Source: Sphingomonadales bacterium
Lineage (GTDB): Bacteria; Pseudomonadota; Alphaproteobacteria; Sphingomonadales; Sphingomonadaceae
Reading direction: 5' to 3'
Assembly: GCA_018067055.1 (NCBI GenBank)
Contig: JAGPVK010000274.1
Span: 1-10,442, forward strand
Length of the DNA: 10,442 bases
Position 1 is the stretch's first letter, and each line of letters begins with the position of its first letter. Positions 3,983-10,442 of this stretch are shown here, piece after piece. The notes under the pieces are model-generated. The model had not been told where the DNA came from, ran no database searches, and was given only the letters and a program-made list of their open reading frames with translations. The translations under genes and the position numbers were made by a program.

Positions 3983-5437
3983 CTAGGGCTGCCTTCCGCT
4001 ACCGCCGTTGATTCCGCCAAGCCCATTTCCGATCAAGTAAAACTCCTTTTGCCGACCATCGATATACAGCACTATATTGCCATCAAAAAACGCATCCTCC
4101 TCTGTCTTAAAGGATACTCTTTGGTTGCTCCATTCGGGAACCGGCACTGTTGCGCTAAGTTCGATTGACCAGGCCGTGTTCGGGTGCACAATATATTCTC
4201 CGTGCGGGCCAGGCGTCTGGTCGTCCCAGAAACCTATAGCAGTGCCTGCCCCATGGCCATGATAGCCAATCGGGTGCGAATAAATGCTGGGCTCCAGCCC
4301 TTGGGCGATAGCTTTGTCACGTGCGCGCGTGAGAATGACATTGCCGCTATCGCCAGTCTTGAAGGACGACGTTAGCGCATCCTGAACAAGGTTGCTGGCA
4401 GCCAGACCATCTCGCAAGCCTTTCGGCGCCTGTGTCTCGCCATCGCGCAAGACATATGCATTCTGCTGGGTGTCAGTGTTCAAACGCAGATATGTAATTC
4501 CAAAATCCGTCCAGAGCATATCGCCTTGCTCAATGACCGTATCACCGTCCAGCGTTTCATCCACTCCCCGGCGACTGATGGCCACGGAAGGTTGGAACCA
4601 GGTTTCTAGCCCCAGTTCCGCGATCCTTTCGCGGAACCACCAGACCACGTCGTCGGTTGTAGTAACACCGGCCGTTATCACCTTGTCCGAGAGCCCTTCG
4701 CCGATAATCGCATGAGCCAGCGCGACGATTTGGGGGTAGCGCTCCATTTCGGAGGGCGTTCGCGTTTCCAGCCAGCGAACCGCAAGCACTTCATCACGGA
4801 TAACCCGCGATTTGAACGAGGCGGGCAATGCCTCCATCATCTCGTCATGGGCGCTCAGCGTCATGCCATCGGCATAGGCGGTGAGTTTCGATGAATTGAT
4901 CGCAATCTTTCGCGGATTGCGTTGGGCGATGATTTCAGCGAGCCGGAGCCATTGGTCAGGCTGCGCTTCCGGCGTCCAGGCCGCCTTGAACATTTCACCC
5001 AAGCCGTAGCGGCTGACGGTGAGCCGCTCGATCGGCTTGCCCACACCGGGATCGAAGAACACCAATATGGTGCGACGTCGTGCCGAGAAGCTCTCGGCAT
5101 CGAGCATCGACGCGACCACCGGCTCCTCGAAATTCTCGCGCGCCACAAGGACCCACATGTCGACGCCCTGTTCGCGCATTATCATGGGTAAGATCGTGTC
5201 GAGACGCTCTTGCAGCCAATCATTCACAAGAGCCGCACGATCTCGAAGCGGCAGGACCGTCGGATAAGCGGCCCTCTCAGCTCCATTCCCGGCAGCAGCA
5301 GGCATAGCGGGCGTCGACAGTAACGTTATGGCAAACAGCACTCTCAGCACCGCGCCAATAAATTTATCCGATCTCGAAAGCCCAAAAAACAATGCATGTT
5401 TTTCGCTTAGTTCCGTGTCGCATGTGTTCGTCAACAT
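3983..5437 (-). CDS. Secreted M24-family metallopeptidase (Xaa-Pro aminopeptidase-like)
   Basis: M24 'pita-bread' enzymes use two metal ions to cleave N-terminal residues, often next to proline. The 484-residue protein has a polar N-terminus, a hydrophobic stretch at about 27-44 and an AxA-type signal cleavage site near PAAAG (46-50), pointing to export to the periplasm. A creatinase-like N-terminal domain (about 55-215) precedes the catalytic domain (about 225-460). Expected metal ligands are visible: Asp311 (WTDFG), Asp322 (NTDTQ), a histidine in HPIGYHGHGAG (388-398, most likely His393 or His395), Glu426 (SIELS) and Glu446 (KTEED). ATG at 5437 has AAGGGG four bases upstream. The signal peptide has an unusually long N-region of about 25 residues, so a later non-ATG start is possible. 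The gene converges with the TetR gene. Activity on Xaa-Pro peptides is likely but unproven. Confidence 0.9.
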   Translation of the reverse strand: MLTNTCDTELSEKHALFFGLSRSDKFIGAVLRVLFAITLLSTPAMPAAAGNGAERAAYPTVLPLRDRAALVNDWLQERLDTILPMIMREQGVDMWVLVARENFEEPVVASMLDAESFSARRRTILVFFDPGVGKPIERLTVSRYGLGEMFKAAWTPEAQPDQWLRLAEIIAQRNPRKIAINSSKLTAYADGMTLSAHDEMMEALPASFKSRVIRDEVLAVRWLETRTPSEMERYPQIVALAHAIIGEGLSDKVITAGVTTTDDVVWWFRERIAELGLETWFQPSVAISRRGVDETLDGDTVIEQGDMLWTDFGITYLRLNTDTQQNAYVLRDGETQAPKGLRDGLAASNLVQDALTSSFKTGDSGNVILTRARDKAIAQGLEPSIYSHPIGYHGHGAGTAIGFWDDQTPGPHGEYIVHPNTAWSIELSATVPVPEWSNQRVSFKTEEDAFFDGNIVLYIDGRQKEFYLIGNGLGGINGGSGRQP

Positions 5438-5738: not shown

Positions 5739-6065
5739 GTGATCGGATTTTTTGCGGCGGTTTCGGCAGCAGTGGCAATTGCTGCAGGTGCTTTCGGAGC
5801 CCATGCTGCACCGGGACAACAGGAAGCGGAATGGCTGAGAACAGGCGGGCTTTATCAATTGCTCCACGCCGTTGCTGCTCTGGCGATTATGGGCGTCGCT
5901 AGAGGTCCGGCGATCTTGCTGCTTGTCGGCTCTGCCGTCTTCGCCCTCACCTTATACGCGATGGCGTTTGGCGCACCACGATGGCTAGGCGCTGTAACGC
6001 CAATTGGCGGGACCTTGCTGATTGGCGGATGGCTATGGGCTGGTTGGATTTATTACCGTGGCTAG
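5739..6065 (+). CDS. DUF423 family small integral membrane protein
   Basis: This 108-residue protein matches the DUF423 family (E. coli YgdD type), whose function is not established. Four hydrophobic segments are visible at about 2-22, 38-54, 58-78 and 83-106, so it should span the inner membrane four times. Family hallmarks are GAFGAH (17-22), YQLLHAVA (39-46), the small-residue LVGSAVFALTLY segment (62-73) and TPIGGTLLIGGWLW (87-100). The start is GTG at 5739, eight bases after AAAAGGAG. An ATG at 5734 is nearer the Shine-Dalgarno but opens only a two-codon frame (ATG-CGG-TGA). The gene stands alone between the divergent peptidase and the LuxR regulator on the same strand 231 bp on. Confidence 0.9.
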   Translation: MIGFFAAVSAAVAIAAGAFGAHAAPGQQEAEWLRTGGLYQLLHAVAALAIMGVARGPAILLLVGSAVFALTLYAMAFGAPRWLGAVTPIGGTLLIGGWLWAGWIYYRG

Positions 6066-6068
6066 GAT

Positions 6069-6085
6069 TTCCGTCCAATTCGGAA
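6069..6085 (+). terminator. Weak hairpin after DUF423, possible terminator
   Basis: TTCCG and CGGAA (five-base arms, seven-base loop) form a hairpin four bases after the DUF423 stop codon. No T-tract follows directly, so intrinsic termination is doubtful. Confidence 0.2.
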
Positions 6086-6219
6086 GGATGCGATTTTCAG
6101 TTCCATTGGCGTCGGCCAACCTGCAGCTAACGATCAAGGGTGATATATTGCTGATATTGCCTGCGTAACAGCGGGTGTGCAGGGTGAATCAATTTATACA
6201 ATCGATGTTTTTCAGTCCT

Positions 6220-6229
6220 AACTGCAGTT
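6220..6229. repeat. 10-bp palindrome AACTGCAGTT upstream of the LuxR gene
   Basis: This perfect palindrome lies in the 231-bp gap between DUF423 and the regulator, about 60 bp before the CTACT repeat. Its half-site resembles the arms of the TetR-gene repeat (AAACTG/CAGTTT) but lacks the two-base centre. A regulatory role is possible but weakly supported. Confidence 0.25.
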
Positions 6230-6279
6230 TCGCCTCCTCACGGCCAAGGTGATTGCGCTGCGTCGCTTGCATTCCATAC

Positions 6280-6293
6280 CTACTTGGTAGTAG
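6280..6293. promoter_or_regulatory. CTACT inverted repeat, site A (upstream of LuxR gene)
   Basis: CTACT-TGGT-AGTAG has perfect five-base arms. The 17 bases 6277-6293 match 8853-8869, ahead of the hydantoinase gene, at 14 positions. The site ends three bases before the longest-ORF start at 6297, so it either overlaps the translation start region or, more likely, is a promoter site of a shorter gene. It is proposed as a binding site for the LuxR protein itself. Confidence 0.6.
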
Positions 6294-6296
6294 CAA

Positions 6297-8810
6297 ATGT
6301 TTTGCAAACATGGGAAGGCAAGGACTACGCTGCCAATGTTAACGGATGGGCATCAGAGCAAAATGGTCGAGCGTATCGTTGCGGGCCGTTCGATTGTGGC
6401 TCTTTGCGCACCGCCAGGCTTCGGCAAAAGTCGACTTGCGCGCGAGGCGGCGAAACGGATTTCAGCTAAGAGCGGACTAGCAATATGTGAGTTTGGCCAG
6501 ATCGAGCATCGGGCCGACCCCCGTGCCTTGGCAGATAGGTTGCTCGGAGCGGCAAAGCAGATCACGATAATTGAGGGTCTGCATCTGACAGACAGAGATT
6601 TCCTTGGCCTGGCGCTCGAACGGATCAGTTTCGACAACAGCAACTCGCGGATCATAATGACGATTAGTCAACCCAGCGACTTTCCGCTGGCGCGGATTGC
6701 GACCCGATGCTCAATCGACATTCTTGACGCCAATGCGCTGCGCCAGCGGCCACAAGTGACTGCTGATGCCCTGAAATCGATACCGCGCGCAAAATTCCGT
6801 TCGCGGATCCGGGAACTGGCTGGTGATTGGCCGGTTGCAATCGAGTTCTTGTGTGCATGGGCAGCGGGATCCCAGGACAGTTGCGAGAGTTGGAGTGATC
6901 TCGACATAATACGTGAAAGCCGGCTCGGGGAGTTTATCAGCCAAGAGGTTCTGACATTATTCTCGGCAGATGAACTTTCCGCGCTTGTTCATGCCAGCTT
7001 GCTGGATGTTCCGGATCTCGACATTATTGCCTCGGTTACGGGTTATCAAAACGACGGCCGGATTCTGGCAGACCTGGCTTTCAGGTTCAAAGGTCTGGTT
7101 GACCGCCACGAAAACCGCATCATTTTGCAGAATGCTCTGCGAATCTGGTTGCGCGACGCGATCGAGGCTTATGATGACCAGGTTCGCGTTGCCCTGCTGG
7201 TTTCAATGGCGGACCAGTGCTCGGCAAAGGGAAGGCTTGCCGAGGCAGCGAGGCTGGCAAGAATGGCGGGTGACACGAGTCGAATACGGGAATATGCTCA
7301 TGCCCATGGCGCTTTAAGAATATGGATTGTCCACGGTTTCTCTGTGCTCAAGGAGTTACTGGAGAATTCAAGCCCGCAGGATATCGCCAGTTCCATCGTC
7401 TTGCGAATGATAGAATGTATTGTCCATATGAAGGCTGGACGGATCAATGCTGCGCAGGATCTGTTCGAGTCACTGGCCCACGAAGTCGGACCCGGCCACC
7501 TATTGACCAAGGACCTTGAAATCGTTCGTGTGACCTTGCTTGTCTATGGCTGCTCACTCGAACGCACAGGCGATCTTGAACTGATCAGAAGTTTGATCAC
7601 GGAACAAGCTGATGATGCCGCGATGCGGACATTTCTCGCTACACTATCTGCTATCCTGAACAGCCAGCGCGCACGGTTCGATGTGGCCGTAGCGAATCTT
7701 ATCGATGCGCGCGCGCAAGCCAAAAAGGTTTCATCGCAATATAATCTGATGTTCCTGCTGATGCACGAAGCGTCCATCAATCTGGCGCAAGGCAAGTTGA
7801 AGCACGCCAGAACCTGTCTGTCGGAGGCACGCAGCAGATGGCAGCGGGATTTCGCTATCGATGTCGGCGTTGAGACAGTTCTTGCCGCATTGAGCGCTTC
7901 TATCGAGTTTGAAGCTGGACGCCTTACCAGTGCCCGCAATTCGCTCAAGAAATCGGCGCATCGGATGCCCGAAGCCGAAGCCTGGTTTGACATATATTTT
8001 GCGGCTTACGAAACAATGATACGGATCAATGTCGCAGATCACGGTATCGGCGCAACGCTTGAGTCGGTCGAGGACGAGGCGCGCAAATTGCGAGCGCAAG
8101 GTTTGCCGCGAGTAGCCGACTTGTTGATGGCTATCAGACTTTGCGTTTGCGGTGAGGCCAGCCTTCAGGGTCAGCAGGCTTTGATATCCCAGATGAAATG
8201 GGAGATACCTCCGGTCGGGCCGACAAGCAGTTGGCAGGAACAGGAGGTCTTCTCGATCGCTCGGGTATATGCCGATTATTTCAACGGAAAATTCGATCAG
8301 GCCTGGACCTTGCTGGAAGGTTCGATCGAAGCAGCCGCGACTTGCGGCCTTGAACGATCACGTTTGCGTTATCTGCTTGTGGCCTTTGTCATTGCGACTG
8401 CTGAGGGTCAAAAGCATCGCGCCAGCGCCATGCTTCGGCGCGCGATATCGATTGGGGCTGCGACCGGCATGCGCCAGATTTTCCGGGAGATTGCGGGCAC
8501 GAAACTGACGCCTGCCCTGCATGCACTGCTGGATGATTCAGACCTTACCGACCTCGAAGAAGGGTTCGTGGCTATGTTGCTCAATCGACTGGGCGATCGT
8601 CAGGGCGTCGCCAGTGGGCAACTCTCCGCGCGGGAACTAGAGATTCTGGGGTTATTGAGTGCAGGAGGATCCGACAAACATCTTGCCCGTCTTCTCAATA
8701 TTTCGGAACATGGCGTTCGTTTTCATCTCAAGAACATCTTTAAGAAGCTGCGTGTCCATGATCGCCTTTCGGCGGTGGCGGCAGCACGCAAACTCGAGCT
8801 TACAAGCTGA
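6297..8810 (+). CDS. Large MalT-like LuxR-family transcriptional regulator
   Basis: This 837-residue protein has the architecture of large ATP-dependent (MalT/STAND-like) LuxR regulators, which bind a ligand and ATP, oligomerise and activate nearby catabolic operons. A P-loop, APPGFGKSRL, lies at 38-47; a candidate Walker B, ITIIEGLH (89-96), has Glu-Gly where related proteins usually have Asp-Asp. The middle (about 300-760) is helical and alanine/leucine-rich, like TPR-type sensor repeats. The C-terminal 62 residues (776-837, LSARELEILGLLSAGG onward) are a LuxR helix-turn-helix with NISEHGVRFHLKNIFKKL as the DNA-reading part. ATG 6297 lacks a Shine-Dalgarno; ATG 6336 (AAGGA upstream) and ATG 6363 (just before the P-loop strand) are alternatives that would place site A in the promoter. 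The ligand is unknown; the hydantoinase gene downstream is the likely target. Confidence 0.88.
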   Translation: MFCKHGKARTTLPMLTDGHQSKMVERIVAGRSIVALCAPPGFGKSRLAREAAKRISAKSGLAICEFGQIEHRADPRALADRLLGAAKQITIIEGLHLTDRDFLGLALERISFDNSNSRIIMTISQPSDFPLARIATRCSIDILDANALRQRPQVTADALKSIPRAKFRSRIRELAGDWPVAIEFLCAWAAGSQDSCESWSDLDIIRESRLGEFISQEVLTLFSADELSALVHASLLDVPDLDIIASVTGYQNDGRILADLAFRFKGLVDRHENRIILQNALRIWLRDAIEAYDDQVRVALLVSMADQCSAKGRLAEAARLARMAGDTSRIREYAHAHGALRIWIVHGFSVLKELLENSSPQDIASSIVLRMIECIVHMKAGRINAAQDLFESLAHEVGPGHLLTKDLEIVRVTLLVYGCSLERTGDLELIRSLITEQADDAAMRTFLATLSAILNSQRARFDVAVANLIDARAQAKKVSSQYNLMFLLMHEASINLAQGKLKHARTCLSEARSRWQRDFAIDVGVETVLAALSASIEFEAGRLTSARNSLKKSAHRMPEAEAWFDIYFAAYETMIRINVADHGIGATLESVEDEARKLRAQGLPRVADLLMAIRLCVCGEASLQGQQALISQMKWEIPPVGPTSSWQEQEVFSIARVYADYFNGKFDQAWTLLEGSIEAAATCGLERSRLRYLLVAFVIATAEGQKHRASAMLRRAISIGAATGMRQIFREIAGTKLTPALHALLDDSDLTDLEEGFVAMLLNRLGDRQGVASGQLSARELEILGLLSAGGSDKHLARLLNISEHGVRFHLKNIFKKLRVHDRLSAVAAARKLELTS

Positions 8811-8812
8811 AC

Positions 8813-8828
8813 CTACTAATTACAGTAG
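8813..8828. promoter_or_regulatory. CTACT inverted repeat, site B (distal site before hydantoinase)
   Basis: CTACT-AATTAC-AGTAG has perfect arms with a six-base centre, starting three bases after the LuxR stop codon. The left arm with its flank (ACCTACT) is identical to site A. Its centre lies 42 bp from that of site C, about four helical turns, which would put both on one DNA face. Confidence 0.5.
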
Positions 8829-8855
8829 TATAAGATTTATCGCATCTATCGATAA

Positions 8856-8869
8856 CTACTAGGTAGAAG
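8856..8869. promoter_or_regulatory. CTACT inverted repeat, site C (proximal site before hydantoinase)
   Basis: CTACT-AGGT-AGAAG is the third copy, with one mismatch in the right arm; the inner CTAC-TAG-GTAG is perfectly symmetric. TTGCAA follows directly at 8870-8875. If that hexamer is the -35, the site is centred near -43, where LuxR-type activators often sit. I see no convincing -10, which fits an activator-dependent promoter. Confidence 0.6.
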
Positions 8870-8902
8870 TTGCAACCTCCCAACCAGTGGCATTGAGCAA
8901 AT

Positions 8903-8936: not shown

Positions 8937-8941
8937 GGAGG
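8937..8941 (+). promoter_or_regulatory. Ribosome binding site of the hydantoinase gene
   Basis: GGAGG lies six bases before ATG at 8948, a near-ideal site. It fixes the start directly before the family's first phosphate-binding motif. Confidence 0.75.
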
Positions 8942-8947
8942 ATTTAG

Positions 8948-10442
8948 ATGCGAATTGGGGTGGATGTCGGTGGAACAAATACTGACGCAGTCCTGCTTGC
9001 GGGCAAGAAGGTTCTGGGAGCGGTCAAGCGACCAACCAGCAGTGATGTAAGCTCTGGCATCTCCTCAGCCATTGGTGCGCTCATCTCGGATTGCGATGTC
9101 AAGCCTGGCGAAATCACTGCTGTCATGATTGGCACGACTCACTTTACCAATGCATTCATCCAGCGCCGCGAACTTGTCCCGGTATACGCAATAAGGATCG
9201 GGTTTCCAGCCGGGCGAGGCATCCCTCCATATTCTTCATGGCCCGACGATCTCAAAGCCTTGGTATGCGGTGGTTCCGCTATGGTGCGGGGCGGCTTCGA
9301 ATTCGATGGCCGCGAAATTTCTGCGCTTGATGAAGCGGCAATTGCCAATGCGATAACAGAAGCGCGCGCCAACGGGATTGGCCAAATTGCAGTCTCGTGC
9401 ATCTTTAGCCAGCTAAACCCCGATCACGAAACCCGCACTGCGGCCTTGATTAGTGAACTTGCACCGGAAATGGAAGTGTCACTGTCTTCCGAGCTCGGCC
9501 GTGTCGGTTTGCTCGAACGCGAAAACGCGGCAATCATGAACGCCAGCCTTCGGCCGCTCGCCGCCACCATCACCGCAGCCTTTGAACGCGCTTTGCAAGA
9601 ACAGGGGATCACGGCCCCCTTTTACATTAGCCAGAATGACGGCACCCTGATGAGCGCTGACTATATGCAGCGATATCCGGTGATGACATTCGCAGCCGGT
9701 CCGACAAACAGTATTCGCGGCGCAGCCTGGCTGACTGGTGCCAATGATGCGATTGTCGTCGATATCGGGGGCACCACTTCCGATGTCGGAGTATTAATGG
9801 GTGGCTTCCCCCGCCAATCGACGGTCCACGTAGATGTTGGCGGAGTCCGCACCAATTTTCGCATGCCAGACATTTTGTCAATTGGCCTGGGCGGGGGCAG
9901 CCGCGTTCGCGAAAGCGCAGGTAAAGTTACCGTTGGCCCCGACTCGGTTGGCTTCCAACTGCTCACCGAAGGGCTGATCTTTGGCGGTGATACGCTTACA
10001 GCAAGCGACATCGCCGTCGCCAGCGGGCAGATCTCCTTCGGTGAACCATCACGCGTTGCCGGGCTTTCTCCAGTCCTCGTTTCACAGGCGCGCAAGGCCG
10101 TTGCCCGGTTGATCGACGACGCTATCGATCGCATGAAAACAATGCCGGGCGATATACCGATGATACTGGTTGGTGGCGGTTCGATCCTTGTCTCCGAAAC
10201 TCCGCAAGGCATTTCTGAAATGTTGCATCCGGAACATGCGGGTGTTGCCAATGCAATCGGTGCGGCAATTGGCCAGGTTAGCGGAGAAGTCGACCGGATC
10301 TACAACATCGCTGACGCGCAAGAACGAGCAGCAGCGCTCGCAGATGCAGAAGCACAGGCGAAGGCGCATGCGGTCAGCGCTGGCGCTGCTCCCGATAGCG
10401 TGGAAATTGTCAATATCGAGGCCGTTCCCCTACAATATCTGC
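8948..10442 (+). CDS. Hydantoinase/oxoprolinase family protein (HyuA-like), 3' end beyond window
   Basis: This family uses ATP to open cyclic amides (hydantoins, 5-oxoproline) or to energise carboxylation (acetone and acetophenone carboxylases). The visible 498 residues carry the ASKHA nucleotide-binding elements: phosphate-1 GVDVGGTNTDA (4-14), phosphate-2 VVDIGGTTSDVG (270-281) and adenosine motif LVGGGS (407-412). IGTTHFTNA is typical of the N-terminal hydantoinase A domain; FAAGPTNSIRGAA and LSIGLGGGS are typical of the main domain. The alanine-rich helical end (about 430-490) resembles the C-terminus of the shorter, roughly 500-550-residue subgroup, so little may be missing. ATG 8948 follows GGAGG by six bases. 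The gene lies 137 bp after the LuxR gene, behind two shared repeats, so it is probably that regulator's target. The substrate cannot be told from sequence. Confidence 0.92.
   Translation, partial: MRIGVDVGGTNTDAVLLAGKKVLGAVKRPTSSDVSSGISSAIGALISDCDVKPGEITAVMIGTTHFTNAFIQRRELVPVYAIRIGFPAGRGIPPYSSWPDDLKALVCGGSAMVRGGFEFDGREISALDEAAIANAITEARANGIGQIAVSCIFSQLNPDHETRTAALISELAPEMEVSLSSELGRVGLLERENAAIMNASLRPLAATITAAFERALQEQGITAPFYISQNDGTLMSADYMQRYPVMTFAAGPTNSIRGAAWLTGANDAIVVDIGGTTSDVGVLMGGFPRQSTVHVDVGGVRTNFRMPDILSIGLGGGSRVRESAGKVTVGPDSVGFQLLTEGLIFGGDTLTASDIAVASGQISFGEPSRVAGLSPVLVSQARKAVARLIDDAIDRMKTMPGDIPMILVGGGSILVSETPQGISEMLHPEHAGVANAIGAAIGQVSGEVDRIYNIADAQERAAALADAEAQAKAHAVSAGAAPDSVEIVNIEAVPLQYL

Follow-up and report, generated by a model that had tools for sequence, protein, structure and literature searches.

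A predicted CTAC half-site operator array of a MalT-like LuxR-family regulator next to hyuA in sphingomonads

A gene for a MalT-like regulator of the LuxR family precedes a hydantoinase-family gene, hyuA, in the window analysed here (a whole contig of 10,442 nucleotides from a bacterium of the Sphingomonadales), and short inverted repeats stand on both sides of the regulator gene. Do these repeats serve the regulator as its operator, and which genes would it control through them? The initial annotation of this DNA had seen in them a private operator, giving autoregulation plus activation of the hydantoinase operon. Reading the sequence directly, we find the three repeats at the positions it gave, A at 6280-6293 (CTACTTGGTAGTAG), B at 8813-8828 (CTACTAATTACAGTAG) and C at 8856-8869 (CTACTAGGTAGAAG), and by hand count 14 of 17 bases are indeed identical between 6277-6293 and 8853-8869. 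Comparative evidence suggests that A, B and C, together with a further half-site D, form an operator array of the adjacent regulator, through which it probably controls both its own gene and hyuA with its operon (probability about 0.8). That the regulator binds there, that it activates hyuA, with what sign it regulates itself and that it has an inducer are all things that we infer.

Relatives of the regulator were drawn from whole genomes, from named contigs (17 loci, nine with a regulator at least 40% identical) and from plasmids (one record, pABRDHK22 of Novosphingobium sp. EMRT-2). The regulator family is patchy: when genomes were sampled evenly across the order, only 6 of 396 reached E 1e-60. 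Once duplicate records were dropped (L033/L037, L005/L039, L035/L045, L041/L145, L044/L138, L040/L144), 13 loci with a regulator at least 40% identical were left, the distant L036 and L140-L143 being counted apart; the 13 represent about six lineages and hence are not independent. hyuA follows the regulator on the same strand in every one of them, 111-145 bp past the regulator stop. An inversion of the regulator in L004, L005 and L007 was considered and ruled out, these loci being collinear. Two contigs titled as Oceanobacter and Opitutae MAGs (L038 and L042) bear a sphingomonad-type locus; mis-binning is a possible source of these titles.

Orthologous loci with regulators as little as 40% identical still carry the motif, whereas its absence from such loci is what the initial annotation had named as counting against its reading. 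The ortholog alignments also show that the arms are better described as CTAC/GTAG half-sites, separated by three bases at A and C and by eight at B (Table 1). Described in this way, C (8856-8866) is perfect and loses the mismatch formerly ascribed to it, and the B and C centres, given as 42 bp apart, come to lie 40.5 bp apart. The conserved measure is instead the distance from B-left to C-left, which is 43 bp in the window and, across the 13 loci, 43 bp in nine and 44 bp in four. D, spotted only once the alignment was in view, reads CTCC in the window, ACTCC at its position in L040 and CTAC in the distant loci G577 and G550. Counted from B-left, the forward half-sites stand at 0, 43-44 and 64-65 bp, distances close to whole turns of the helix. 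The helical phasing proposed earlier stands once it is restated as intervals of 43-44 and 21 bp from one forward half-site to the next.

Table 1. Features of the window, with conservation among the 13 loci where counted.
Feature	Position	Strand	Description
Site A	6280..6290	no strand	CTAC-N3-GTAG inverted repeat before the regulator; exact in 11/13 loci, L034 and L038 deviate
MalT-like LuxR-family regulator gene	6336..8810	+	ATG 6336 is the likely start codon; the open frame reaches back to ATG 6297
Site B	8813..8828	no strand	CTAC-N8-GTAG inverted repeat directly past the regulator stop; exact in 12/13 loci, one mismatch in L037
Site C	8856..8866	no strand	CTAC-N3-GTAG inverted repeat; exact in 11/13 loci, one mismatch each in L034 and L045
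Half-site D	8877..8880	+	CTCC, direct repeat 21 bp past C-left; CCTNC there in 12/13 loci, starting 20 bp past the C-left start, so that CTNC lies 21 bp past CTAC
Invariant TTG	8893..8895	+	11/11 loci; possibly part of a -35 element
hyuA, hydantoinase/oxoprolinase-family gene	8948..10441	+	Hydant_A_N 2.1e-35, Hydantoinase_A 2.5e-33; contig ends inside the gene

Across 11 of the 13 loci (L145 and L139 were omitted as close copies), the 20 half-site columns of B, C and D have a mean identity of 0.986 and 85% of them are invariant, against 0.584 and 3.8% for the 105 other spacer columns, a comparison that is partly circular because the B and C columns were set by the window's own repeats and D was picked after alignment. 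Just four columns outside the half-sites are invariant in these loci, namely C 8885 and the TTG of Table 1. No sigma-70 consensus promoter was found. A few bases 5' of A, a block close to TTGCTTGCATT (6265-6275 region of the window) is shared by the window, L034, L037, L038 and L039, five loci that make up the closest group in the alignment; it is possibly a promoter element.

The position of A depends on where the regulator starts. ATG 6297 is not conserved, but at the position of ATG 6336 a start codon is found in six loci, the window among them, which puts the end of A about 45 bp, and not 3 bp, ahead of the likely start. The protein carries a C-terminal GerE helix-turn-helix (PF00196, 2.5e-14 in the window), present in all ten aligned members, each of which also keeps the recognition helix HGVR-x-HLK; among solved structures, ChrA is the best match to this domain and NarL (1je8, 8u3b) is among the matches. 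A MalT-type TPR region (PF17874) matches at 1.7e-10 with 41.2 bits, below the cut-off of 45, and is found at E up to 0.01 in 10/10 aligned members. The window protein scores 79.8 bits with the MalT equivalog NF003420, whose cut-off is 537, and a domain search saw no receiver domain in it. The Walker A region (residues 38-45) reads APPGFGKS in the window, and the AAA_16 match is weak (0.0083). By eye, a canonical GK[ST] is present in four of ten aligned orthologs and missing from the other six, the CAPPG just before it being invariant; the distant L140-L143 possess GK[ST]. It is conceivable, if doubtful, that a clade is losing its ATP-binding P-loop with the operator unchanged, in which case the activator would have come off an ATP-driven STAND switch and the pre-spaced B-C-D scaffold would build the multimer. 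The suspicion that the L040 regulator is a pseudogene was dismissed, its frame being open from 6009 to 8484 with the stop preceding the likely start. Our search of the open-access literature found no paper on this branch of MalT-like regulators.

CTACT-N4..6-AGTAG has two matches in the window and none in 200 dinucleotide shuffles, and in the organism's own genome (2.70 Mb in 487 contigs, 80% complete) it occurs at two places only, both at this locus, the reversed control pattern occurring 37 times; the motif is thus not common genome-wide, and its being common is what the initial annotation had said would undo its proposal. The refined pattern CTACYNRGTAG picks out A and C alone in the same genome (15 for the reversed control) and occurs 0-4 times per genome in 32 genomes of the genus. 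In two of these, G014 and G029, whose regulators are 82 and 79% identical, the only two copies both lie at the locus; G025 has four copies with one at the locus, and G024 has the regulator and no exact copy, A and C being altered by one change each. Eleven loci, amounting to 153,225 bp, contain 28 exact copies of CTAC-N3-GTAG or CTAC-N8-GTAG, always at A, B or C and before no other gene. The composite CTAC-N8-GTAG-N18..36-CTAC-N3-GTAG has five matches in 397 genomes of the family, the reversed control giving a by-eye sum of 31, and all five, in the window and in L104-L107, sit between a LuxR relative and hyuA. A wider regulon sought through CTACYN6RGTAG was discarded, as the other matches in the genus look like background; the second match in the own genome lies at G000:C376:6077-6092. 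One sequence of this type, CTACCTGATCAGGTAG (L075 in G011, 1501), is embedded in a more extended stem that has runs of A and T and stands where two genes converge, a terminator-like setting, and sites of the similar form CTACC(C/T)GATC(A/G)GGTAG recur in several genomes of the genus.

Are the sites tied to the regulator-hyuA pair, or to hyuA in general? At E up to 1e-100, 31 of the 397 genomes of the family contain a hyuA relative; 45 matches were listed, loci were taken for 30, and the 29 besides the window (L109-L137) were examined with 1.5-kb flanks for a LuxR match (E up to 1e-5) and for a palindrome CTAC-N3..8-GTAG within 200 bp of hyuA. A LuxR match lies directly upstream of hyuA in 14 loci, and seven of these have the palindrome while the other seven are without it; it is found in 0 of the 15 LuxR-less loci, whose hyuA copies are also more distant and therefore do not make a clean control. 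In ten distant loci with a regulator 22-39% identical (nearby and not directly upstream in G005), CCTACY/RGTAGG occurs nine times before hyuA where 1.3 are expected, a count reached in none of 500 shuffles. The LuxR-less loci show a mild half-site excess too, with three CCTACY/RGTAGG against 0.9 expected (29/500 shuffles) and nine of the looser CTACY/RGTAG against 3.4 (6/500 shuffles). In G577, hyuA is preceded by two copies of CCTACT at a distance of 21 bp, and the longest frame of the regulator by two copies of AGTAGG, again 21 bp apart; in G005, GGTAG occurs twice at the same distance before a regulator 31% identical. Because of these spaced copies and the enrichment in distant loci, the half-site seems to predate the arrangement in which it now stands. 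L140-L143, where start codons are uncertain, showed no A palindrome. Among 18 distant MalT-like regulators (21-27% identical by tblastn), two of which have less than 30 bp of searchable upstream sequence, one (L102) has the palindrome within 300 bp upstream. This is a B-type palindrome (CTACCAAAATTGGTAG, 4229-4244), placed 68 bp ahead of the regulator, a MalT-like protein of about 25% identity, and the 4.9-kb L102 locus holds no hyuA match.

It is because the sites are rare, conserved, fixed in spacing and linked to the regulator-hyuA pair that we read them as an operator. The site is conserved with the regulator and rare elsewhere, and the private-operator reading of the initial annotation gains support from its rarity genome-wide, its presence in orthologous loci and its association with the regulator. 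The helix-turn-helix of the regulator would recognise the CTAC(Y) half-site. Before the regulator gene stands a lone inverted pair, A, at which the protein may tune its own synthesis; five half-sites at fixed spacing (B-left, B-right, C-left, C-right and D) stand before hyuA, where the regulator, in the presence of a putative inducer, would assemble cooperatively on B-C-D and activate the hyuA operon. An excerpt of PMC4381067 describes how MalT multimerises with its inducer and can then bind MalT boxes cooperatively and recruit RNA polymerase. The half-site array would fit a MalT-like assembly, as its forward half-sites are placed near whole helical turns.

Excerpts of the literature on known systems show both likenesses and differences. 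E. coli MalT is likewise a large LuxR-type regulator, has the TPR region that the window protein matches below cut-off, and binds cooperatively to several sites with direct repeats (PMC4381067, PMC6099782), cooperativity being only proposed here; its box is GGA[TG]GA (PMC9628970), whereas the half-site here is CTAC(Y) and inverted pairs dominate. MalT-box direct repeats are absent by eye from the regulator-hyuA spacer, whose only such hexamer is GGAGGA 8937-8942, in ribosome-binding position. NarL has a related helix-turn-helix and reads TAC half-sites in inverted pairs, as in the engineered site TACCCCTAAAGGGGTA (PMC4549865), but its 7-2-7 spacing (TAC-N10-GTA) differs from the TAC-N8-GTA of B and the TAC-N3-GTA of A and C. 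Two LAL regulators also show likenesses: SCO6993 of Streptomyces coelicolor has palindromic sites and binds its own promoter (PMC9628970), which is predicted here, and TpdR of Rhodococcus jostii is the activator of a catabolic promoter in which both direct and inverted repeats occur (PMC6099782); both differ from the system of the window in site sequences, hosts and target genes.

The same operator could work with the opposite sign, the regulator repressing itself and perhaps hyuA until an inducer releases it. A consists of just one inverted pair, not far from the likely start codon, and SCO6993 is, in the excerpt of PMC9628970, a repressor that binds palindromes in its own promoter; yet B, C and D precede the invariant TTG and are 68-135 bp ahead of the hyuA start, a position that would suit an activator, and MalT itself recruits RNA polymerase (PMC4381067, excerpt), which makes this version unlikely in our view. 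Conservation alone cannot tell which protein reads the sites, because regulator and hyuA co-occur, and linkage to the locus does not prove that the regulator is their reader; another transcription factor might happen to control both genes. Apart from L102, moreover, the palindrome was not seen with the 18 distant MalT-like regulators. The scarcity of CTACYNRGTAG in the genus is, however, unlike a factor with its own regulon, and similar half-sites recur, with their 21-bp spacing, before the divergent regulators of G005 and G577; we regard a different reader as quite improbable.

A role of the repeats in RNA, as small hairpins of an attenuator or leader, is more improbable still. B can pair: 91% of cells pair on 13 B sites (reached in 8/500 shuffles), and its covariation score, which comes from changes in two flanking pairs, is reached in 4/500. 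A symmetric DNA site would account equally for these paired changes, and three of the four core CTAC/GTAG pairs are invariant, the remaining one departing once, to an unpaired state. The outermost B pair is broken in five of the 13 loci, the same letters return at A, B and C around differing spacers, and we found neither a terminator-like site nor an Rfam match. The arms are short, as chance or the debris of a repeat element would have them, but conservation in 13 loci refutes such an origin, rarity and spacing also speaking against it, and its probability is negligible. Preferring an operator array of the adjacent regulator, we consider this regulator-operator prediction, made from sequence, unusually well supported; its kind is already known and this member is new.

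Since the contig stops at 10442, within hyuA, the content of the operon is taken from relatives. hyuA is followed in G024 by an S-Me-THD-like (DUF917) protein, a TonB-dependent receptor and a cytochrome b561-like protein, and in EMRT-2 by DUF917, a protein of the Asp/Glu racemase family and a TonB receptor. DUF917 proteins and hydantoin racemases occur together in some gene clusters (PMC11055893, excerpt), and the same excerpt states that DUF917 proteins are without experimental characterisation. Our guess is that the substrate is a hydantoin-like ring or a cyclic dipeptide. An M24 peptidase gene lies upstream in the window (3986-5437, minus strand) and a gene of the Xaa-Pro peptidase family near the EMRT-2 locus, perhaps hinting at a peptide-derived substrate.

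One branch of MalT-like regulators thereby receives a precise, testable predicted operator, whose fixed spacings of 43-44 and 21 bp would allow one to test cleanly in what way direct and inverted half-sites within one promoter are read by a large LuxR-type regulator. The predicted operator would also provide a handle on the inducer, and hence on the substrate, of the hyuA/DUF917 operon.
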